DNA from: Paenibacillaceae bacterium
Lineage (GTDB): Bacteria; Bacillota; Bacilli; Paenibacillales; CANHGK01
NCBI GenBank assembly: GCA_947460235.1
Contig: CANHGK010000027.1
Span: 1-32,196 of the forward strand
DNA: 32,196 nt
Direction: 5' to 3'
Shown: positions 6,871 through 32,196 of the stretch, in pieces
How the letters are laid out: each line of letters opens with the position of its first letter
How positions within the stretch are numbered: the stretch's first letter is position 1
Translations under genes and position numbers: made by a program
Notes under the pieces: generated by a model
What the model saw: only the letters and a program-made list of their open reading frames with translations
Databases searched by the model: none
Told to the model about the DNA's origin: nothing

Positions 6871-7889
6871 ACCCCGACCAAAACTGATGCACTTGTGACA
6901 AAGCTATAATTGCTTGATGCGTCTAGTGCCAAAGTCCCGTTCCAAGTAATCGTATCAAATTGAGAGTTATATATCCCGAGCGGCGGCAAATCTCCATTCA
7001 CCAAAAACGAACCTAATGACGCCGTAACATTTCCTTGAAAGAAACAATTGGTTACGTTGGCGTATACCGCAACATTGATGCTTCCACTTAAACGACTGTC
7101 AACCAAACGCTGAATTCTGATGGATGCTTTATTCATCACCCGAATTCGCGAATGATAAATATACGTATTTGTTATCCCAGTGTGCGCCGGCACTGCAAGC
7201 GGATCATTGATGATACTTCCCAATACACTCGCATTTAAAAGTTGAAATTCGATCGTTGTACTCCCATCAATCGGATCCGTATTTTGAAAAATGATATTTC
7301 CGCTGATGGTTGCGCCGTCTGTGTAATTGGTGTGTGTACTAGCTGATGTTCCATTGTCCAACGTGCCAATCACGGTAACTGATCTGGCTCTTACGAGATA
7401 TGCATTTTCAATTGATGGGTTGGTTTGAATCGTAATGTTTCTCGGAATGGTGGATACAAAATCCGAAAGTATTGCATTCCCTAATGTCCACGGACCTAAT
7501 CCAAGCAATTGAACGTTTCTTGCCGGCGGAATGATCACATCCTCATCAAATGCTGAATTCGCAGCAATGAGTATCACTAACCGGGCTTTTGTTCCCAGCG
7601 TATTCGCGAAAGCACTTGAGGTCGCTGCAGTGATCGCCGCTTGTAAGGATTGATACGGATCAGACGGCGAACCATCACCTGGTCCAGGTGCACTCGAATC
7701 CGCCCAAATGACCGTCTGATCTCCCCAAACAAAAGTACTCGACCCTGCCGGACCACGCGGACCCTCGGGACCAACTGGACCTTGAGGACCTTCTGGACCA
7801 CGCGGACCCTCGACATTCACTCGAGGATTCATGCTCGCACCACAAAAGCATCCATAACCCATCGAATTGCCACCACAACAGCAGTCCAT
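6843..7889 (-). CDS. Collagen-like (Gly-X-Y) protein with beta-rich C-terminal domain, probable spore-surface protein
   Basis: The 348-residue product opens with a cysteine-rich head (MDCCCGGNSMGYGCFCG), then seven Gly-Pro-X triplets (about residues 29-50: GPRGPEGPQGPVG and on), then a ~290-residue Ser/Thr/Asn-rich region full of short beta-strand patterns (NIIFQN, VTVIG, SRIRVMNKASIRI) that suggests a beta-helix or trimeric beta-domain. This resembles BclA-type exosporium and other collagen-like surface proteins, which trimerise. There is no classical signal peptide, consistent with assembly on a spore in the mother cell. The ATG at 7889 is preferred because AAGGGG lies 9 nt before it; the longer in-frame TTG start has no spacing. 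A sigma-K-like -10 (CATATTCTA, minus strand 7967-7959) lies upstream, but its -35 spacing is poor. Confidence 0.8.
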   Translation of the reverse strand: MDCCCGGNSMGYGCFCGASMNPRVNVEGPRGPEGPQGPVGPEGPRGPAGSSTFVWGDQTVIWADSSAPGPGDGSPSDPYQSLQAAITAATSSAFANTLGTKARLVILIAANSAFDEDVIIPPARNVQLLGLGPWTLGNAILSDFVSTIPRNITIQTNPSIENAYLVRARSVTVIGTLDNGTSASTHTNYTDGATISGNIIFQNTDPIDGSTTIEFQLLNASVLGSIINDPLAVPAHTGITNTYIYHSRIRVMNKASIRIQRLVDSRLSGSINVAVYANVTNCFFQGNVTASLGSFLVNGDLPPLGIYNSQFDTITWNGTLALDASSNYSFVTSASVLVGVKTILNSLV

Positions 7890-9687: not shown

Positions 9688-9690
9688 TAA

Positions 9691-9750
9691 AACAAGGCAT
9701 CTGTGTTTTCAATTCCTGTTGAGGGATTGAAAAATGACAGATGCCTTGTT
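9691..9750. terminator. Bidirectional terminator between alpha-glucosidase and DUF1801 gene
   Basis: AACAAGGCATCTGT (9691-9704) pairs with ACAGATGCCTTGTT (9737-9750), and the inner TTTTCAATTCC/GGGATTGAAAA extends the stem almost continuously. T-rich ends on both sides let it serve both convergent genes. Confidence 0.85.
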
Positions 9751-9752
9751 TG

Positions 9753-10124
9753 TTACGTTTGCTTTTTCTTTTTCATGTTCTTCTTTGCTTCTGCTTTCGC
9801 TGTCACCTCGATCACGCGAAATCTGACCATCTCGCGGATCAACTCCAGTGGCATCGGTTTATCCAGCGGAAATTGTACCGATCCCTTCGCCCATTTGAGA
9901 TGTGCAATTTGGTCATGAAATGCCCTAATCGCACTCGGTGACGGATAAAAACCAATATGTCTCGCATATGCCGCAAAATGCACCAAATTCTCGTGCAATG
10001 TAAACGTCGGCATCTGATAGCTCATCGTTTCTACTGCTTCAGGCGCTTCTGACCGGATGGTCATTCTGATTTCTTCCAAGATGATTTGAACGTCTGGTGG
10101 AAACTTCGCAATGTATTCATCCAT
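9753..10124 (-). CDS. DUF1801 / YdhG-like protein
   Basis: The 123-residue cytoplasmic protein has the DUF1801 pattern: MDEYIAKFPPDVQIILEEIR, then EAVETMSYQMPTF, a central HFAAYARHIGFYPSP, a stretch KGSVQFPLDKPMPLELI and a Lys-rich tail. The domain has a frataxin-like fold, and B. subtilis members have been proposed as iron chaperones, but the function of this one is not established. The start at 10124 lies 4 nt after the selO stop. A longer frame reaches into selO, but the family begins at MDEY. It is probably co-transcribed with selO, with weak ribosome-site sequence (CGGGA), suggesting translational coupling. A decayed second copy of part of this gene lies at 15906-15943. Confidence 0.8.
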   Translation of the reverse strand: MDEYIAKFPPDVQIILEEIRMTIRSEAPEAVETMSYQMPTFTLHENLVHFAAYARHIGFYPSPSAIRAFHDQIAHLKWAKGSVQFPLDKPMPLELIREMVRFRVIEVTAKAEAKKNMKKKKQT

Positions 10125-10128
10125 TGAA

Positions 10129-11595
10129 TCACGTCCCGCAATAAGTTTGATATGGCTGCTCACATGCAACAGGAACTACTGCGTATTCAGCCTGTTCCGG
10201 TGTATGCGCGTATGGATTTCCGAGCACCGCAAGTAGCTGCTCCAACACCGAGTAATCAGCATGTTTTACCGCTGCCTCAAGCGCCGCTTCCACCCGATGA
10301 TTCCGCGGAATAACCGCCGGATTACTCGAACACATGCATTCCCTTGAAGACTCCGCGCCTTCTGTTTGCCGTCCACGTCTCGCCTGCCATCGCTCGTGCC
10401 ACGCAACAAATGCTGCCGAAGAATACATTACCGAACCTTCGAATCGATCAAACGTCAGATCAAGAAATGTATTCGTAAAATCCGCATGGTGCGCCTGCAT
10501 GACGCTGAGCAGTTCTTCAAATAAGGCCCGATCTTCTTGTTCCTCATTAAAAATTCCTAGTTTTGAGCGCATCCCTGCGACCCACTGTTGGTAATATAAT
10601 TCGCTAAACTTCTCAATTTCTTCGCGTGCGATCGTGATCGACTGTTCTTCGTCCGAGTGGATCAGCGGCAATATACTTTCTGCCAAACGCGCCAAGTTCC
10701 ACGCGCCAATATACGGCTGATTGCAATACGCATAACGGCCTTTGGCATCAATCGAACTAAACACCGTTTCTGCATCATACGCATCCATAAATGCGCACGG
10801 GCCGTAATCAATCGTTTCTCCGCAAATCGACATATTGTCTGTATTCATTACGCCATGGATAAATCCAACCAACTGCCACTTTGCGATCAGCGACGCCTGC
10901 CTTTTCACAACTTCCCTGAGCAAAAGTAAATAGCGCTGTTCGTCCATGAGCGAGATCTCCGAAAAGTGTCTTTGAATGGTGTAATCTGCAAGCGCGCGAA
11001 CATCGTCCAACGCCCCAAATTGAGCGGCAAATTGAAACGTCCCGACGCGAAGATGACTACTTGCAATCCTTGTAAGGATCGCACCCGGTAATTCCGTTTC
11101 TCGGTACACTGGTTCTCCGGTCGTGACAACCGCCAAACTACGTGTGGTCGGAATGCCAAGTCCATGCATCGCTTCGCTGATGATGTATTCCCTCAGCATC
11201 GGACCGAGCGCAGCAAGTCCATCGCCGCGGCGCGAGTAAGGCGTTCTTCCAGATCCTTTGAACTGGATATCAAATCGCTCCCCTGTTGGTGTGATGTGTT
11301 CACCAAGCAGAAGCGCTCGTCCGTCACCTAACATATTAAAATGTCCGAATTGATGTCCTGCGTATGCTTGTGCAAGTGGCTGCGCACCATCAGGCACGAT
11401 ATTTCCGGAAAAAATAGCCGCACCTTCATCCGCGCCTAGCAGTTGCGGGTTTAACCCAAGTGATTTGGCAAGCACAGCATTAAAGACAACCTTCTTCGGC
11501 GCAATTACAGGTGATGGGTGCACAGCACTAAAGAACAAACTTGGTAACCTCGCGTAACTGTTATCGAATTGAAATTCAAGTGGTTGCTCTTGCAT
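10129..11595 (-). CDS. selO: Protein adenylyltransferase SelO (YdiU/UPF0061)
   Basis: The 488 residues match the full family length. SelO is a pseudokinase-fold enzyme that transfers AMP from ATP to protein Ser/Thr/Tyr and is linked to oxidative stress. Recognisable motifs are [20 protein letters not shown] (about 80-99), [14 protein letters not shown] (113-126, nucleotide site lysine and glycine loop), [13 protein letters not shown] (247-259) and [10 protein letters not shown] (262-271, DFG-like metal site). The C-terminus YQTYCGT keeps the cysteine that is selenocysteine in animal homologues. GTAGGAG lies 6 nt before the ATG. It is followed at 4 nt by the DUF1801 gene. A relic of a second selO copy (both gene ends) lies at 15953-16027. 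Confidence 0.93.
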
Positions 11596-11623
11596 GTTAA
11601 ACTCCTACGTTGTGTGTCATTGT

Positions 11624-11724
11624 TTTCGATAAAACAAGCGATACTCCCTTAGTTTCAGCTCATCGTTTTGTTCATATAGGATAGAATTCCCAGCTTTAAT
11701 TCGCGTCAAATGCTTTTCGTAAAA
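11624..11724 (-). pseudogene. Internally deleted relic of the GH13 lipoprotein gene
   Basis: 11626-11675 matches 16163-16212 (the extreme 3' end of the intact amylase gene) with 6 mismatches in 50 by eye. 11680-11722 matches 16771-16813 (the middle of that gene) with 3 mismatches in 43. The two pieces are adjacent here but ~555 bp apart in the intact gene, so an internal deletion has occurred. Orientation is the same as the intact copy. It sits in the spacer between the ABC exporter operon and selO. Confidence 0.85.
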
Positions 11725-11727
11725 ATT

Positions 11728-13632
11728 CTACGATGCCTGCATTTGTTCAAATTGACTGTTATAAAGCGTCGCATAAAATCCGCCATCCGCTAACAATTGT
11801 TCATGTTTGCCTTGTTCTACGATATCTCCATCTTTCATCACCAAAATGACATCCGCATCACGAATTGTGGACAAGCGATGTGCAATGATAAAACTTGTGC
11901 GACCATGCATCAATTGATCCATCGCTTTTTGGATGAGTACCTCTGTGCGTGTATCTACGGAACTAGTTGCTTCATCAAGAATAAGAATTTTCGGATCAGC
12001 TAACATCGCGCGCGCGATTGTTAGCAATTGTTTTTGACCTTGTGACACATTGGTCACCTCTTCGTTTAATACCATACCATAGCCGTCAGGTAATGTTTTG
12101 ATAAAATGGTGTGCATGCGCCGCTTTCGCTACCTCAATCACTTCCTCATCCGTTGCCATCAAGTTGCCATAACGAATATTTTCCATGATCGTACCGTTAA
12201 ATAGCCACGTATCCTGCAACACCATCCCGAACAAGCTACGCAATTCATTCCGCGAAAAGTCTTTGATATCATGTCCATCGATCGAAATCTTACCTTGTTG
12301 CACATCGTAAAAACGCATCAATAGCTTCACAATTGTCGTTTTCCCTGCACCAGTTGGTCCGACAATCGCAACACGTTGACCCGGTTTCACGGCAACTGAA
12401 AAATTACGAATGATCGTTTTGTCTGAATTGTAGCCAAAATCGACATGCTCAAACGTGACTTGACCGGAAACATCGTCCGTAGATACAGGCTCCGCAACTT
12501 CTTCCACTTCTTCCGATTCATCCAAAAATTCAAATACTCGTTCTGCGGCAGCAGCCGTCGATTGAAGAATATTTGAGATTTGTGCGATTTGTGCAATGGG
12601 TTGTGTGAATTGGCGTACATATTGGATAAACGCGAGAATATCCCCAACTTCAATCGTTTTGCGAATGGCTAACCAACCGCCCAAAATCGATACGAGCACG
12701 TAACCAATGTTCCCAACAAAAAGCATAATCGGCATCATCATCCCAGACAAAAACTGTGATTTCCACGCCGAGTCATATAATGTACGGTTTAATCGATCAA
12801 ATTCGTTGACCGCTTTTTCTTCCCCGTTAAATGCTTTCATAATCACATGTCCGCCGTACATCTCTTCGACGTGACCATTCACATGTCCTAAATATTCTTG
12901 TTGATCCTTAAAGTATTTCTGTGATTTTTTGAAAACGAGCATGATCAAAATCATCGACAATGGCAAAATTAACACCGTGCCGAGTGTCATCACCCAACTA
13001 ATCGACAACATCATTATGAAGACACCGACAATCGTGACGACCGATGAAATGATTTGCGATAAACTTTGGTTGAGCGATTGATTCACGGTGTCCACGTCGT
13101 TGGTGACGCGAGACAATACTTCACCGTGCGATTTGGTATCGAAGTATTTTAACGGCAACCGGTTAATTTTTTCGGCAATATCTCTACGCATCCGATAAGA
13201 AACCTTTTGCGCAACGTCAGCCACGACAAAACCCTGTACCATCCCAAACAGCGTACTAATTAGATACAAACCGAGCAATAGCAAAGCCGTTCGGCCAATT
13301 GATGCAAAATCGATTCCGGCACCAGCGGTTCCAGATACTTTTGCCACGAGTCCTTCAAATATTTTAGTTGTCGCATTACCAAGAATTTTTGGACCGATAA
13401 TCGCGAATGCCGCACTTCCTACTGCAAACACCATCACGATGAGCAATGATGTTCGATACGGCGATAAATATCCAATCAATTGTTTCATCGTACCCTTAAA
13501 ATCTTTGGATTTCTCAACGGTACGCATCCCGCCCATCGGGCCACCCATACCGCCGCCCATCGGACCTCTACCCATTGGACCACCCACGCCTGAACGATTG
13601 TTATTCATTTGACTACGATGATTTGCATTCAT
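11728..13632 (-). CDS. ABC exporter half-transporter, catalytically competent subunit (YfiC/LmrD-like)
   Basis: The 634-residue fusion has six membrane helices (about 60-340) and a nucleotide-binding domain: Walker A GPTGAGKTT (425-433), Q-loop VLQDTW, signature NVSQGQ (528-533), Walker B ILILDE with catalytic Glu554 and switch His585 in AHRLST. The signature departs from LSGGQ (Gln for Gly), which fits the degenerate ATP site of a heterodimeric exporter. The first ~36 residues are an unusual Gly/Met-rich tail (GPMGRGPMGGGMGGPMGG). The ATG overlaps the stop of the partner gene (ATGA), so the two are coupled. Substrate unknown; the family includes multidrug and peptide exporters. No terminator is visible downstream. 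Confidence 0.92.
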   Translation of the reverse strand: MNANHRSQMNNNRSGVGGPMGRGPMGGGMGGPMGGMRTVEKSKDFKGTMKQLIGYLSPYRTSLLIVMVFAVGSAAFAIIGPKILGNATTKIFEGLVAKVSGTAGAGIDFASIGRTALLLLGLYLISTLFGMVQGFVVADVAQKVSYRMRRDIAEKINRLPLKYFDTKSHGEVLSRVTNDVDTVNQSLNQSLSQIISSVVTIVGVFIMMLSISWVMTLGTVLILPLSMILIMLVFKKSQKYFKDQQEYLGHVNGHVEEMYGGHVIMKAFNGEEKAVNEFDRLNRTLYDSAWKSQFLSGMMMPIMLFVGNIGYVLVSILGGWLAIRKTIEVGDILAFIQYVRQFTQPIAQIAQISNILQSTAAAAERVFEFLDESEEVEEVAEPVSTDDVSGQVTFEHVDFGYNSDKTIIRNFSVAVKPGQRVAIVGPTGAGKTTIVKLLMRFYDVQQGKISIDGHDIKDFSRNELRSLFGMVLQDTWLFNGTIMENIRYGNLMATDEEVIEVAKAAHAHHFIKTLPDGYGMVLNEEVTNVSQGQKQLLTIARAMLADPKILILDEATSSVDTRTEVLIQKAMDQLMHGRTSFIIAHRLSTIRDADVILVMKDGDIVEQGKHEQLLADGGFYATLYNSQFEQMQAS

Positions 13633-15809
13633 CCGGCAAGTTCCTCCTTGGAGAGCTGGGAATAGGCGATTTCTTGATAAACTTCACACGATTCTAGCAA
13701 CTGTTGATGTGTTCCGACCCCGGCAATTTTGCCTTCCTCCAACACAATAATTTGATCTGCTTGCATGATCGTACTGATCCGCTGCGCGACGAGTAAAATC
13801 GTACGTTGACCCATTTGCTCTTTCAATGCTTTACGAAGCGACGCATCGGTTTTGTAATCAAGTGCAGAGAAACTATCATCAAAAATATAGATTTGCGGCT
13901 GTTTAGCCAACGCTCTCGCAATCGAAAGGCGCTGTTTTTGTCCACCTGAGACATTCGTTCCACCTTGCGCGATCCCAGTCAAATATCCTTCAGGCATCGT
14001 TTGAATAAATTCTGATGCTTGTGCTGTATCTGCAAACTGCTGAAGTTGTTCCGCACTGATTTGATCAACGCCATAACCGATGTTACTTTCAATACTTCCA
14101 GTAAACAGTACTGCTTTTTGAGGCACATAGCCGATTTGTTGGCGGAGTTCATGTTGCGTTACACTGCGTATATCAATACCATCAATCGTAATTTTCCCAG
14201 CAGAGACGTCATAAAACCTTGGAATCAAGTTAATAAGCGTTGATTTTCCGCTGCCTGTACTTCCAATAAACGCAGTCGTTTGACCAGGTTTCGCGGTGAA
14301 TGAAATATCAGATAACGCATCTTCTTCCGCCCCATGGTGACGGAAATGAACGTGTTCAAAGCGGACTTCACCTTCCAACGTACCTTGAAATGATTGCGCA
14401 TGCGCTGCATCGAGTATCGTGTTTTCAACTTGTAACACTTCATTGATTCGATTCGCCGATACTGTTGCACGCGGCAACATGACGGAAACCATCGAAATCA
14501 TCAAAAACGCCATAATAATTTGCATCGAGTATTGAATAAATGCCATCAAATCACCAACTTGCATCGCACCTTGATCGACCTGATGTCCCCCAACCCAGAT
14601 GACCAATAAGGTCGTACCGTTCATGATCAACATCATTAGTGGCATCATCGTGGTCATCATTTTAGTAACGAACAAAGTCGTTTTGGTCAAATCGACATTT
14701 GCTTGATCAAACTTTTGTTCCTCAAAGCGCTGCGTACTAAAGGCGCGGATGACCGGAATTCCCGTCAATATTTCTCTCGTCACCAAGTTTAACCGATCTA
14801 CCAACTGCTGAATCATCTTGAATTTTGGAATTGCTACGCCAAACATCACCAAAACAAGTGATAAGATCGCCATTACCGCCACTGCAATTACCCATGACAT
14901 TGACGAATCGCCGCTATACACTTTGATGATCCCTCCAACCCCAAGGATTGGCGCGTAAAACACAATACGCAATACCATAATCATTAACAATTGAACTTGT
15001 TGAATATCGTTTGTGCTGCGAGTGATCAGTGATGCCGTCGAAAACCGATCAAATTCAGCATTCGAAAATCCCGTCACCTTGCGAAACACATGATTCCGCA
15101 AATCCTTCCCTAATCCAGCGCCGACTTTTGCCGACAAAAAGCCAACCACAACCGACGCTGACATGCCAATAAGTGCAATGAGCAACATCAATCCGCCCAT
15201 CTTCAAAATATATTGCGTTTGCTTCTGACGCATATCAATGCCAATCGCTTCGTATTCTTGATGTACACTGGCGATTGCCGCTTGTGTCATCATAGAAGCA
15301 GACAATCCATTAAATTTCTTCTCGATCTTTATTTTCATCGCTTCAATCATTTTTGGTTGCATTGCTGCCAATTGAATAAGGTTGATGCCAGTGTTACCCG
15401 ATTTTTCAATACCAGACACGATCAGCATCGGCTTTTCCATCAAATCGATCAGATCACCAGTTGAATCAGAAGTCAATTGATAGATTGGTTCCTTCGCCAA
15501 GATCGGATAGGATGCTACCGCCGTATCATACTCCCCCTTTGACAACTTGCTGCGATCGAGCAATTGATACGCTGCCTTAACTTTTGATTGCTCCGCTAAA
15601 CTCATAAAAATAAATAGTTGTTCCAACTTACTTTTACGGATCGCTTCGGGAATCGCTTGTTCGATGCCACCTTGCTGAATCCCGACGTTAACGATTTTCG
15701 ATGTATAATCTGGAAGCGCTAAATCACTCATCGCCTGCACGAATAATAACGCAATAATCGTAACCACCGAAATCAAAAATGGTTTAACATATTTTATCAA
15801 CTTAAACAC
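13629..15809 (-). CDS. ABC exporter half-transporter, degenerate-site subunit with extracellular insertion
   Basis: The 726-residue fusion has its first helix at about 10-30, then a ~160-residue charged region (about 45-200) before the second helix, which should form an extracellular domain absent from standard half-transporters. The remaining helices reach to about 445, then the ATPase domain: Walker A GSTGSGKST (516-524), signature NVSGGQ (619-624), Walker B IYIFDD with Asp645 in place of the catalytic Glu, and AQRIST with Gln676 in place of the switch His. Two catalytic losses here and an intact partner at 11728-13632 are the pattern of asymmetric heterodimers such as BmrCD and LmrCD. A GTG start is supported by a perfect AAAGGAGGT 9 nt upstream. 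Confidence 0.92.
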   Translation of the reverse strand: MFKLIKYVKPFLISVVTIIALLFVQAMSDLALPDYTSKIVNVGIQQGGIEQAIPEAIRKSKLEQLFIFMSLAEQSKVKAAYQLLDRSKLSKGEYDTAVASYPILAKEPIYQLTSDSTGDLIDLMEKPMLIVSGIEKSGNTGINLIQLAAMQPKMIEAMKIKIEKKFNGLSASMMTQAAIASVHQEYEAIGIDMRQKQTQYILKMGGLMLLIALIGMSASVVVGFLSAKVGAGLGKDLRNHVFRKVTGFSNAEFDRFSTASLITRSTNDIQQVQLLMIMVLRIVFYAPILGVGGIIKVYSGDSSMSWVIAVAVMAILSLVLVMFGVAIPKFKMIQQLVDRLNLVTREILTGIPVIRAFSTQRFEEQKFDQANVDLTKTTLFVTKMMTTMMPLMMLIMNGTTLLVIWVGGHQVDQGAMQVGDLMAFIQYSMQIIMAFLMISMVSVMLPRATVSANRINEVLQVENTILDAAHAQSFQGTLEGEVRFEHVHFRHHGAEEDALSDISFTAKPGQTTAFIGSTGSGKSTLINLIPRFYDVSAGKITIDGIDIRSVTQHELRQQIGYVPQKAVLFTGSIESNIGYGVDQISAEQLQQFADTAQASEFIQTMPEGYLTGIAQGGTNVSGGQKQRLSIARALAKQPQIYIFDDSFSALDYKTDASLRKALKEQMGQRTILLVAQRISTIMQADQIIVLEEGKIAGVGTHQQLLESCEVYQEIAYSQLSKEELAG

Positions 15810-15841
15810 GAATACCTAACCTCCTTTGGTTAACTGGGTTA

Positions 15842-15870
15842 ATTATATGTGATAACGATAGATGCGTAAA
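15842..15870 (-). promoter_or_regulatory. Candidate sigma-A promoter of the ABC exporter operon
   Basis: On the minus strand, TTTACG (15870-15865), a 17-bp spacer and a perfect TATAAT (15847-15842), 32 bp before the GTG start. Confidence 0.55.
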
Positions 15871-15905
15871 TATCACGTTCCTTTTAAATTTCCGTGCAAT
15901 ATAAA

Positions 15906-16027
15906 CGTTTCTCACGCTTGAAGCACTTCTGAACGGATGGTCAGCATGTGCTGGTGTATGCCCAATGGATTCCCGAAGCATTATAAAATAACTTTGGCAA
16001 CCTCGCGTATCTGTTATCGAATTGAAA
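15906..16027 (-). pseudogene. Collapsed relic of a second DUF1801-selO pair
   Basis: Three short pieces are collinear with the intact pair. 15906-15943 matches 10026-10063 inside the DUF1801 gene (7 mismatches in 38). 15953-15980 matches 10199-10225 near the 3' end of selO, with small indels. 15993-16027 matches 11540-11574 at the 5' end of selO (3 mismatches in 35). Everything between has been lost. Strand and order are the same as in the intact copy. Confidence 0.85.
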
Positions 16028-16086
16028 ACATACTTATCATTTATCTCGTACATGCTACGACAAGTGAACATAATGACGAACGATGC

Positions 16087-16120
16087 AAAAAAATACCAGT
16101 GCTGAACACGCACTGGTATT
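16087..16120 (-). terminator. Rho-independent terminator of the GH13 lipoprotein gene
   Basis: Perfect 11-bp stem AATACCAGTGC (16092-16102) with GCACTGGTATT (16110-16120). The seven-base A-run on the left gives a U-run on the minus strand. Confidence 0.92.
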
Positions 16121-16153
16121 TCGTATGGACCTTCTATTTTTCAGATGATACCT

Positions 16154-17584
16154 CTATTGATTTCGATAAAACAAGCGATACTCCCACGGTTTCAGCTCGT
16201 AGTTTTGTTCGTCTTTCAAGGTGACTTCTTGAGGCTCCGGGAATGTGTGATATTTCCCTTGTTGGGAATGGTATTTGACCGTAACTTTGCTAGGCGCAGA
16301 CGACAAATTGAGCAATATGATCACTTGATTGCCATCTTTTTTGCGCGTATACGCAAGTACTTTCTCATCTGACGTATCGATTGTATCGATATCGCCGCCA
16401 TTTTTCCCGTTCCAAAGTGCAGCATTCTCATGTTTGAAACGAATTAAATCTTGATAAACATTCGTCAAAGACATATCGGTCCAATCAATCTCGTCTTTCT
16501 CAAAAAACTTCAAGCGCTTCGTGAGTGCAGCTTCCTGACCGGAATAGACAAGCGGAATACCTGGAACGGTAAAATATAATGCTGCCATCGCTGGCACGGC
16601 GCCTTCTTTGAAACGTTCAAATTCGCTTCCATTCCAAGAATTTTCATCATGGTTCGTAATAAACTGAAGTGGAATCGTTCCATCCGGATAATTTCGACTC
16701 ATTTTCGAGAAAAAGGAACTAAATGCCATTCCCAATGTTCGCTTTTCCTGTGCGACGTCATCCATCATATGATAGAATTCCCAGCTGTAATTCGCATCAA
16801 ACGCTTTTCGTAACATCTCCATATCGCTATTGTCTTCCGCAAGCATAAACACCGGTTTGATATTATCTAATTCAATTCGAACATCTTTCCAAAACTTAAC
16901 GGGAACGCCTGATGCATGATCTTCACGAAAACCATCCACATCCGCTTCTTTGACCCAAAAAGCCATTGCCTCAATCATCGCTTCAGACATGTCTTCATTT
17001 TTAAAGTTCAAATCCGCAACATCTGTCCAATCTGTGCCTGGTGGATGAATGATTTTACCCGCAGCAGTGCGCGTGTACCATTCTGGATGTTCTTTGATCC
17101 ATGGATTATCCCAGCCGGTATGATTCGCAACCCAGTCCATAATTACATGAAATCCCATATCATGACACTTTTTCACGAGCGCCTTGAACTCGTCCATCGT
17201 CCCAAACTCCGGATTTACTCCTTTGTAATCAGCAACTGAATAATAGGAACCGAGTACACCCTTTCGATTCTCCTTTGAGATCGGATGAATTGGCATGAAC
17301 CAAATAACATCCACACCAAGATCTTTCAATCGTTGCAAATGCGGTTCGAATGCTGCGAACGTGCCCTCATGCGTGTACTGTCTAATATTCACTTCATACA
17401 TAACCGCATTTTTCATCCATTCTGGCAACTGCTTTTCACGTGTCGCTACCCGTTCCTTCTTCGGCGTTGCCGTCGCTTTCGGTTGCACAGAAGGTTGCGC
17501 AGCATCTTGTTTTGGTTGGCAACCAATCAATACCAAACTAAGGAGTAAGATCAAACTTAAATTAAAGACGATTAATTTTTTCAT
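16154..17584 (-). CDS. GH13 alpha-amylase-family lipoprotein
   Basis: The 476-residue product has a lipoprotein signal (MKKLIVFN...LSLVLIGC, lipidated Cys22), then a Gln/Pro/Thr-rich linker to about residue 50 and a GH13 barrel starting EWMKNAVMYEVNIRQYT. Catalytic residues: nucleophile Asp222 in DGFREDHA, acid/base Glu250 in MLAEDN, and Asp313 in FITNHDENSW. A short C-terminal beta-domain ends in the family's PWEYRLF pattern. It should sit on the outer face of the membrane and cut alpha-1,4-glucans or maltodextrins, supplying oligosaccharides that the cytoplasmic alpha-glucosidase could finish. The ribosome site TTAGGAGGTTACA precedes the ATG. A fragment of a second copy lies at 11624-11724. 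Confidence 0.93.
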   Translation of the reverse strand: MKKLIVFNLSLILLLSLVLIGCQPKQDAAQPSVQPKATATPKKERVATREKQLPEWMKNAVMYEVNIRQYTHEGTFAAFEPHLQRLKDLGVDVIWFMPIHPISKENRKGVLGSYYSVADYKGVNPEFGTMDEFKALVKKCHDMGFHVIMDWVANHTGWDNPWIKEHPEWYTRTAAGKIIHPPGTDWTDVADLNFKNEDMSEAMIEAMAFWVKEADVDGFREDHASGVPVKFWKDVRIELDNIKPVFMLAEDNSDMEMLRKAFDANYSWEFYHMMDDVAQEKRTLGMAFSSFFSKMSRNYPDGTIPLQFITNHDENSWNGSEFERFKEGAVPAMAALYFTVPGIPLVYSGQEAALTKRLKFFEKDEIDWTDMSLTNVYQDLIRFKHENAALWNGKNGGDIDTIDTSDEKVLAYTRKKDGNQVIILLNLSSAPSKVTVKYHSQQGKYHTFPEPQEVTLKDEQNYELKPWEYRLFYRNQ

Positions 17585-17708
17585 TGTAACCTCCTAAAGA
17601 TTCCTGTGTATTTAATGGACGAACAACAAATTATGTTTTCTAACTATTTATTTTTGAGTTAACTGTCAAAAATCCTTTAATCCCATTAAAGAAATTCAGC
17701 AATAACAT

Positions 17709-17754
17709 AAAAATCGGTAAACCGTTCCTCATGGAAGGTTTACCGATCATTTTT
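17709..17754. terminator. Terminator of the kinase-alarmone synthetase-MprF-like operon
   Basis: ATCGGTAAACC (17713-17723) pairs with GGTTTACCGAT (17738-17748). There is an A-run on the left and T-run on the right, so it can act in both directions. It lies just beyond the operon's last stop at 17765. Apart from it, 17585-17708 holds only the upstream region of the GH13 lipoprotein gene. Confidence 0.85.
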
Positions 17755-17764
17755 CATACTACTC

Positions 17765-23252: not shown

Positions 23253-23258
23253 CGCTCA

Positions 23259-23310
23259 TAAAAAAGACCATGATTTCGCATCGACTGCGAAATCATGGTC
23301 TTTGTTTTGT
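23259..23310. terminator. Bidirectional terminator after nspC
   Basis: Perfect 18-bp stem AAAGACCATGATTTCGCA (23263-23280) with TGCGAAATCATGGTCTTT (23286-23303), followed by GTTTTG. An A-run on the left also gives a minus-strand U-run, so it may end the gene at 23399 as well. Confidence 0.93.
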
Positions 23311-31000: not shown

Positions 31001-32196
31001 CAACCTGCTCACCGCCAGAAATTGCAATTTCATACGCCGGAAACGACACTACGATTGGTGCTTGGACCAACGTCCAGTTTGCATAAACCGTTGTCGCTTG
31101 TGTGATCTGAACAGTACCAAAATCAAAAGGAAGTGTTCCATTTTGATCTTTGTACCACCCTTTGAAGGTGTATCCTGATTTTGATGGATCTAAAGGTTTT
31201 GAAGCTTTCTTTTTGAAAGCAATCGACTGACTCGTAACTGCGCTTCCACCGCCATTATTAAAATCCACAAGGTAATTTGACAAAGCGATCGTAACACTTA
31301 TCACACCTAAGCCGGAATCAAGTCCGCCTTGATCCGTTACCTTAAATGTAAATTGATCTGATCCCTCTGAACCGGCGTTTGGTGTGTATGTGTAAGCGCC
31401 AGTTGACGCATCTGTGATCGTAACGTTCCCCTTGCTACCTTGCGTCACAATGGCGTACGTCACCGTTTGTTGTTCGATGTCTTGTCCAGATAATGTACCC
31501 GAAGTGACCGTTTCATCGCTGACATTCAACGATCCATTGTTGGCAATTGGAGCTTCATTCACATCTGTAACTGTAATCATGAACTGCTTCTCGTAGTTGT
31601 TTGATCCATCGTTCACATTCACACGGATGCTGTAACTAGATTTCGTTTCATAATCAAAACTCGTAGCGGTTTGTAGCGTCGTTCCGCTGATCGTGAAACT
31701 CGCGTTATCCGTGTCGCCAGTTCCACTAACAAATGTGTACGTGTAGGTGTTGCCTGAATCCACGTCCGTGTTGCTAAATGTTCCGACCGATGTGATGCTT
31801 AGTGAATTTTCGGAAACACTCGAATTGCTTAATGAAAGATTCGTTGGCGCTTCATTAACGTCAGTCACCGTGATTGTGATCTGCTTCTCGTAATCATTCG
31901 ATCCGTCGTTCACATTCACGCGAATGCTGTAACTCGGTTTCGTTTCGTAATCAAAACTTGCCGACGTCACTAACGAAGTCCCACTTATCGTGAAACTCGC
32001 GTTATCCGTGTCGCCAGTTCCACTCACAAATGTGTACGTGTAGGTGTTGCCTGAATCTACGTCCGAATTGCTAAGTGTTCCGATCGATGTGATGCTTGGT
32101 GAATTTTCAGAAACATTCGAATTGCTTAATGAAAGATTCGTTGGCGCTTCGTTGACGTCAAGCACAGTGATCGTGAACTGCTTTTCGTAATCATTC
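28020..32196 (-). CDS. Very large SLH-anchored adhesin-like protein, 5' end outside window
   Basis: The frame is open through the right edge; 1391 C-terminal residues are seen. From the N-terminal side (numbered from 32165): two near-identical 99-residue cadherin-like repeats (2-199), a third related/VCBS-type domain (200-297), a Listeria-Bacteroides (Flg_new/InlB B-repeat type) domain (298-365, GYTFKGWYKD...TTVYANW), four bacterial Ig-like domains (about 395-740, PxISGTT...GxW...LxDGxY), an invasin-type Big_1 domain (745-843), two carboxypeptidase-regulatory-like folds (846-905 with a DFNHDGTIDFE calcium-like loop, 1044-1130) and degenerate SLH segments to the end (about 1187-1381, FKPNKWITRAE, FGPNKFITNKQ, TWTDVPKSNWAYAEIEEAS). 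It is a rod-like surface protein held by the SLH region; the binding target is unknown. Confidence 0.92.
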   Translation of the reverse strand, partial: NDYEKQFTITVLDVNEAPTNLSLSNSNVSENSPSITSIGTLSNSDVDSGNTYTYTFVSGTGDTDNASFTISGTSLVTSASFDYETKPSYSIRVNVNDGSNDYEKQITITVTDVNEAPTNLSLSNSSVSENSLSITSVGTFSNTDVDSGNTYTYTFVSGTGDTDNASFTISGTTLQTATSFDYETKSSYSIRVNVNDGSNNYEKQFMITVTDVNEAPIANNGSLNVSDETVTSGTLSGQDIEQQTVTYAIVTQGSKGNVTITDASTGAYTYTPNAGSEGSDQFTFKVTDQGGLDSGLGVISVTIALSNYLVDFNNGGGSAVTSQSIAFKKKASKPLDPSKSGYTFKGWYKDQNGTLPFDFGTVQITQATTVYANWTLVQAPIVVSFPAYEIAISGGEQVVTNNITPTISGTTNAPNGTLVSITVAGQTGSASVSNGKWSWNVLSGIADGDYIATAKVSNTQGLESTDQQSIQMDATAYRLTIDSMVLNRVTTDKPILTGTTDAPNGSIVSVKVDGKSYEATVAGGNWSIKVTDSLPNGTYTVYASITDSSGNQAIATQLLSVDVKLPSIAIYNAPTILTNDPTPNINGFTDASNGSAMTIEVNGAKYATTVANGKWEVTITTPLADGSYVVNAYVIDLNGKKGSAVPIQLTINTSKAELKIAEEVSALKSDPRPQLYGTTNLQDFVPIIVEVINASESIVSSQKTSTLSGQWSIKPANDLADGTYTVRVSATEPTWKQVITDQLKLSIETKVDYKLTLSASPKEMFADGKSQSMLSAYAVDPKGKPLAGVTIHFTVGQGTLSTNDVTTDEQGVASALLTSPVIEALEPEQIVAKATISTKDNIVEDNVSILLLPAAIEGYVRDAENGQLVEGAKVTISEDFNHDGTIDFEAVRYTSSDGYYTITVPKGNYEYHPVIEFSKKMNGKEIKLSFEQNAQAGDVGEQGKSFLSENTIGGQLLFVDSTSGETVKMNQYSHTDEAPKLSASLVNSDGSSANVEVNPDGSYRVTGVEKGKTYEVLLTVVASTGEELAGTKVKLTVGQEGEIAFSTTLIDPYGIVKDAATGKVISGVHMKLWFADTETNRTHGRTGGSPVILPILAGFKPNDNKMPQFTDVHGEYAWMVFPDADYYITAEKDGYITYDSRNEKRNVAQLPGEDSYIKDGIIHVGQTIVNYDLELDSVSVPIKVPMPTETKVEKHTKYISGYPGAKFKPNKWITRAELAVLLSRWVKQSGYPINQSKPTEKYRDLGHDQLVKVAIESVTKYGFMTHYKKGKFGPNKFITNKQMKEIIHNVLTVLKKQIKNNYHLNELNKYLSGQKMAGTPHVFTSKFLNRAQTVVILNRLFQRGPITNVTKQTWTDVPKSNWAYAEIEEASQDHQFVRQADDHEKLVKAVK
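31569..32162 (-). repeat. Tandem 297-bp cadherin-like repeats
   Basis: Two complete copies (32162-31866 and 31865-31569) encode 99 residues each with 14 differences by eye (86% identity). The 11 codons at 32163-32195 match the end of another copy, so the array continues outside the window. Confidence 0.9.

Follow-up and report, generated by a model that had tools for sequence, protein, structure and literature searches.

Mirrored gene remnants beside selO and an amylase gene in a Paenibacillaceae genome suggest segment duplication followed by reciprocal loss

Introduction

How do two neighbouring bacterial genes come to be parted, each with broken pieces of the other at its side? This question is raised by selO and an amylase gene in a 32,196-nucleotide stretch of a Paenibacillaceae genome (contig CANHGK010000027.1; hereafter the window, with positions counted on its forward strand). 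An original prediction held that a DUF1801-selO-amylase block had been duplicated in tandem, that each copy had then lost what the other kept, and that the event was fairly recent.

Related histories have been modelled before. In SNAP, as presented by Brandis and Hughes (2020, PMC7055797), a duplication is followed by losses that affect different genes in the two copies, which yields a new gene order. Passages of that paper suggest that pseudogenes whose active counterparts persist may be left over from old duplications, state that direct empirical evidence for such an origin of rearrangements in modern bacteria has so far been lacking, and say that a finished SNAP case leaves no unique mark. 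Brandis (2021, PMC8046335) applied SNAP to operon clusters, in the form of segmental duplication with asymmetrical loss; the word “pseudogene” is absent from the main text of that article. In the duplication-random-loss model for mitochondria, as outlined by Chong and Mueller (2017, PMC5745709), a tandem copy arises, one paralogue of each pair is broken, and the broken one is later deleted.

Results/Discussion

Intact genes and mirrored scraps

All the intact genes of the block lie on the minus strand. On the left are DUF1801 (9753-10124; PF08818, E 3.7e-13, 50.1 bits against a cut-off of 27.2) and selO (10129-11595; protein AMPylase SelO family, PF02696, E 2.2e-112). The SelO domain spans the protein (376.7 bits against a cut-off of 22.8, residues 6-456 of 488), which is full length compared with relatives at 66-70% identity; it passed the YdiU subfamily cut-off of NCBIfam (550.8 against 431) and missed two NCBIfam SelO equivalog cut-offs (388.7 against 900 and 414.7 against 850). 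There follow the second gene (11728-13632; 57-62% identity to its best full-length relatives) and the first gene (13629-15809) of an ABC exporter pair, each with PF00664 and PF00005, and finally an intact GH13 amylase gene (16154-17584; PF00128, E 1.4e-37) whose best orthologues reach 51-53% identity. The distance from selO to the amylase gene is 4558 bp, somewhat under the 5 kb or so that had been predicted.

Two strong hairpins were found in the block. One, a self inverted repeat 3′ of DUF1801 (9690-9751; z −9.8, 0 of 200 shuffles as good), is likely the terminator that closes the selO-DUF1801 end. The other, with a U run on the minus strand (16088-16122; fold of 16080-16130 at z −5.35, 0 of 200 shuffles as good), is likely the amylase terminator. 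Elsewhere in the window, an inverted repeat of 53 bases that is 89% self-complementary (23257-23309) is a possible terminator.

When the two halves of the block were compared by blastn, we found six matches in all, every one plus/plus, in a single collinear order and at mirrored positions, which bears out the predicted agreement of order and strand between the two places. Beside intact selO lie two minus-strand scraps of the amylase gene: its C-terminal end (residues 459-476) at 11619-11673, with 49 of 55 bases identical to 16156-16210, and a piece covering about residues 258-272 at 11676-11722, identical at 43 of 47 bases to 16767-16813. Beside the intact amylase gene, also on the minus strand, lie two scraps of DUF1801 (15886-15908, 20/23 to 9985-10007; 15906-15943, 31/38 to 10026-10063), the 3′ part of a selO scrap (15941-15976, 30 of 37 columns with one gap, to 10187-10223) and its 5′ part, residues 8-24 (15977-16027, 43/51 to 11524-11574). 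Identities to the partners range from 81 to 91%. The predicted identity of about 90% holds for the amylase scraps taken together (92 of 102 bases), which begin a few bases earlier than had been stated, at 11619 rather than 11624. The DUF1801 and selO scraps reach about 83% (124/149, with the few bases in segment overlaps entering twice); collinear as predicted, they number four rather than three and start about 20 bp earlier, at 15886.

Significance was judged from 200 dinucleotide shuffles of each place, and the alignment exceeded chance in this preset test: the best local score was 80 on the left (shuffle maximum 33) and 62 on the right (shuffle maximum 31), and none of the shuffles reached it at either place. 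It is thus extremely improbable that the scraps reflect chance similarity, and the same holds for regulatory elements common to both places or an error of assembly. Taken alone, the shortest scrap (15886-15908) gives a weak match (E 0.03), a point in favour of chance, and its collinearity with the others backs it. The matches fall inside coding regions with their codons kept, which argues against regulatory elements, and a faulty assembly would not give scraps that are 10-17% diverged and carry internal deletions.

Decay of the scraps

Stop codons interrupt the original reading frame at residue 31 of DUF1801 (V31, in the scrap at 15906-15943) and at residue 266 of the amylase (Y266, in the scrap at 11676-11722), and the DUF1801 and amylase scraps are therefore pieces of dead genes. 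The C-terminal amylase scrap carries the changes Y462D, P466L, W467R and N475K. Over 69 codons, 16 have a changed amino acid and 7 a silent change only; scrap and intact gene differ by 18 nonsynonymous and 10 synonymous substitutions, with 81% nonsynonymous expected if there were no constraint. Such a ratio is what free decay of one copy and continued constraint on the other would give.

Comparison with relatives indicates on which side the changes fell. The three distinct orthologues all share the intact residue at amylase sites 266, 466 and 467, where the scrap has changed, and at residue 475 the intact gene agrees with both orthologues that cover it; at residue 462 the intact gene agrees with no orthologue, and at residue 272 with one of three. 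At selO site 13, S occurs in 96 of 109 relatives and the R of the scrap in none. Site 19 points the other way, with more relatives carrying the residue of the scrap than that of the intact gene (K in 14, S in 4), and site 22 (F in 60, Y in 42) favours neither side, so part of the change does not lie on the scrap side. Most of the change, not all of it, fits decay of the scraps.

The scraps also record deletions. On the left, 556 bp of the intact amylase gene are missing between the two scraps; on the right, about 21, 126 and 1300 bp of intact sequence are gone between successive pieces. By eye, the bases shared at the joints number 3, 3 and 0-1 for the 21, 126 and 1300 bp gaps and about 2 for the 556 bp gap, and the joints look like small-homology deletions. 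Short patches with a few shared bases at their joints could also arise if the scraps had never been whole genes and had been copied by template switching during repair. We regard this as very unlikely: on either side, the position, order and frame of the patches are those expected of a complete second gene, and patchwork copying does not predict a mirrored order.

The amylase scraps differ from their partners at 10 of 102 bases and the DUF1801 and selO scraps at 25 of 149; the two divergences are not significantly different (Fisher p 0.14), as a single event would give. With no clock at hand, a divergence of 10-17% does not look like that of a very recent event, and the suggestion that the event was fairly recent was not upheld.

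A duplicated segment with reciprocal loss

We consider it quite probable that duplication of a DUF1801-selO-amylase segment, in direct orientation, was followed by reciprocal loss, with the ABC exporter pair between the copies. Two copies with reciprocal loss are favoured because the scraps are collinear, on the same strand, mirrored, and interrupted by in-frame stops. The ancestral segment would have read DUF1801-selO-amylase on the forward map, with all genes on the minus strand and transcription running from the amylase through selO to DUF1801. Doubling of this segment in direct orientation would have given a second, paralogous copy. The left copy would then have retained selO-DUF1801 and lost most of the amylase gene, and the right copy would have retained the amylase gene and lost most of DUF1801-selO, through a small number of deletions whose joints show hardly any homology or none. 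The exporter pair would have been left whole, either as part of the repeated unit or as a later insertion.

How the second copy arose bears on the tandem origin that had been predicted. The exporter pair lies between the copies. No scrap of an ABC gene scored above shuffles at the outer edges of the block (9688-9752 and 17585-17764; 134 and 87 of 200 shuffles as good), and a tandem unit that included the exporter pair therefore needs one clean extra loss. The absence of such a scrap is in keeping with an allelic segment from a related strain that was inserted beside the resident copy, with reciprocal loss afterwards. The 84-91% identity of the clearer scraps fits a diverged donor too, and transformation with conspecific DNA is described as a frequent source of duplications by Brandis (2021, PMC8046335). 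A diverged functional donor would nevertheless bring an excess of synonymous differences, and none is seen in the 18:10 ratio, a weak test with 28 differences. We judge a foreign copy to be an improbable source. The predicted reciprocal loss from a two-copy block stands as the best explanation; a tandem origin of the second copy is a candidate only, as a foreign copy would leave a similar picture.

The duplication with reciprocal loss that we favour also leaves a difference between the copies to be accounted for. The spacers between amylase and selO sequences are unlike, with 21 bp and no terminator on the left against 126 bp and a terminator on the right, and their alignment was matched by 118 of 200 shuffles; at least one further event must therefore have occurred there. 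The hairpin with its U run (16088-16122) is present in the right copy only, and the sequence 16020-16160 occurs once in the genome.

The locus among relatives

The comparison covered 40 relatives and 198 genomes of the order, none of which was listed in the same family as the window. Neither the undivided block nor two full copies were seen in a sister genome, which weighs against the favoured history. SelO is widespread, with matches at E 1e-40 or better in 170 of the 198 order genomes and a best identity of 70%. The amylase was found at E 1e-70 in 3 of 398 genomes of the class, its own included, the others at 51-53% identity; the best amylase in a plasmid search reached 46.7%, and viral contigs gave no match. 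Among 109 other selO loci, none of them from a close relative, no amylase gene was found near selO and likewise no DUF1801 at E 1e-5, a gene so short that tblastn may miss copies; 29 of these loci had flanks of only about 1.5 kb, and 26 of the other 80 were under 21 kb, cut by contig ends. Conversely, selO, DUF1801 and the ABC pair were absent from three amylase-orthologue loci of 20 kb, none of which came from a close relative. A similar ABC pair (53% and 50% identity) was present in one of the 109 selO loci, that of Heliorestis (L099), in the orientation opposite to selO, and another pair at 39% and 35% in a further selO locus (L115).

Possible change of transcription unit

A gap of 5 bp parts the amylase scrap from the stop codon of the second exporter gene, and the fold of the 132 bp from the exporter to selO did not stand out from shuffles (z −0.61). 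Because of this close spacing and the lack of a strong hairpin before selO, the sequence suggests that transcripts of selO-DUF1801 may now come from the exporter genes rather than the amylase gene. A promoter-like site of the exporter pair was picked up at 15870-15842 by a scan that performed at chance level, and the first DUF1801 scrap starts 16 bp upstream of it. The operon reading is a weak one, because the pattern scans for promoters and terminators gave no more hits than chance (17 against 18.9 and 8 against 7.9) and detected neither of the strong hairpins.

Relation to known models

The locus works like the outcome of the SNAP and duplication-random-loss models, a likeness that stops short of SNAP membership in the strict sense. 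As in duplication-random loss, a multi-gene segment occurs twice with order and strand alike, as seen from the DUF1801, selO and amylase scraps, and each gene is whole in one copy with broken remains in the other. As in SNAP, the copies differ in which genes are inactivated: the left one has lost the amylase, the right one DUF1801 and selO.

The comparison has limits on both sides. The locus shares with SNAP a duplication followed by different losses per copy; however, SNAP duplications as described (PMC7055797) extend over tens of kilobases or more, are kept by selection and are locked by essential genes, whereas the recognisable repeat here is roughly 2-3.5 kb per place and is known from sequence alone. 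With the mitochondrial model (PMC5745709) it shares pseudogene remains beside retained genes, but it lies on a bacterial chromosome, has another gene pair between the copies, and its tandem origin is unproven. The route of bacterial gene-order change proposed by Brandis (2021, PMC8046335) is the same; there it was drawn from gene orders in 204 genomes, whereas here it is drawn from physical scraps in one genome. Among the open-licence papers listed, we saw no report of reciprocal gene scraps from one duplication in a bacterial chromosome.

The short broken scraps seem to show the route by which neighbouring genes were reordered, duplication and then loss, and a finished case can for a while be recognised by such reciprocal scraps. 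The pattern, in which two different genes have left same-strand scraps in a collinear and mirrored arrangement, could be searched for in all genomes, which would make the question countable. We put forward only tentatively, and with more doubt than confidence, that the locus is a late-stage fossil of the SNAP type in which loss moved selO-DUF1801 from the amylase to the ABC exporter transcription unit. If that were true, duplication and loss would also have created a new operon and, taken with a second decayed block on contig C1, would suggest a lineage that repeatedly reorders its genes in this way.

Decayed copies elsewhere in the genome

In a self-comparison control of 73 loci (1.48 Mb, with the window and L007 included), two were flagged, the window and L043; the latter flag is due to one element in three copies, not to two genes. 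Within a 444,197 bp sample of the genome we found 12 gene-to-noncoding matches: 5 in a repeat array at the start of C1, 3 at this locus, 1 between the ABC pair and C6, 2 elsewhere on C1, and 1 from a 41-bp repeat common to C1 and C27. No second reciprocal case was seen in this sample.

The second directly repeated block lies on C1 (83086-88387 and 102141-106845), with pieces 71-80% identical, and is older than the selO-amylase one. One of its genes is whole in both copies (87444-88382 and 106058-106840); in the left copy a putative NUDIX-like gene, named for its sequence motif, has been truncated, and only scraps are left of a 219-residue gene. We saw no reciprocal loss in this block, its decay being one-sided, in the left copy. 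That a second repeated and partly decayed block occurs in this genome speaks for the favoured history of the selO-amylase locus.

An unlinked ABC scrap on C6 (51671-51971; L007 5672-5972) fuses the ends of the two ABC genes, about 1.75 kb of the sequence between them having been lost. It is 78.5% identical over 200 bp to the window's ABC pair, and its divergence is significantly higher than that of the amylase scrap (43/200 against 10/102, Fisher p 0.011). At the amino-acid level it is 87% identical to the window's second ABC gene, against 75% for the best of the other relatives fetched. C6 is at most a possible former home of the ABC pair: the VOC-like gene that neighbours the C6 scrap did not appear next to the pair in other relatives, most of whose loci had flanks of only about 1.5 kb.

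Other repeats were observed in passing. Both contig ends carry direct repeats (window 31547-32196 and 1-177; a 297-bp period at 85.6% and units of about 84 bp), with further copies on C38, C28 and C18; the contig probably breaks at repeats. A short stretch of the window (7757-7799) has several 85-90% copies in the array at the start of C1. By eye, the C6 scrap abuts a shortened gene resembling secreted 380-residue proteins on C1, and inspection of translations at L007 4098-9542 and C1 82226-105691 revealed lineage-typical genes that recur at several places, a set made up of solute-binding-like lipoproteins, 380-residue secreted proteins and partners of 215-236 residues.
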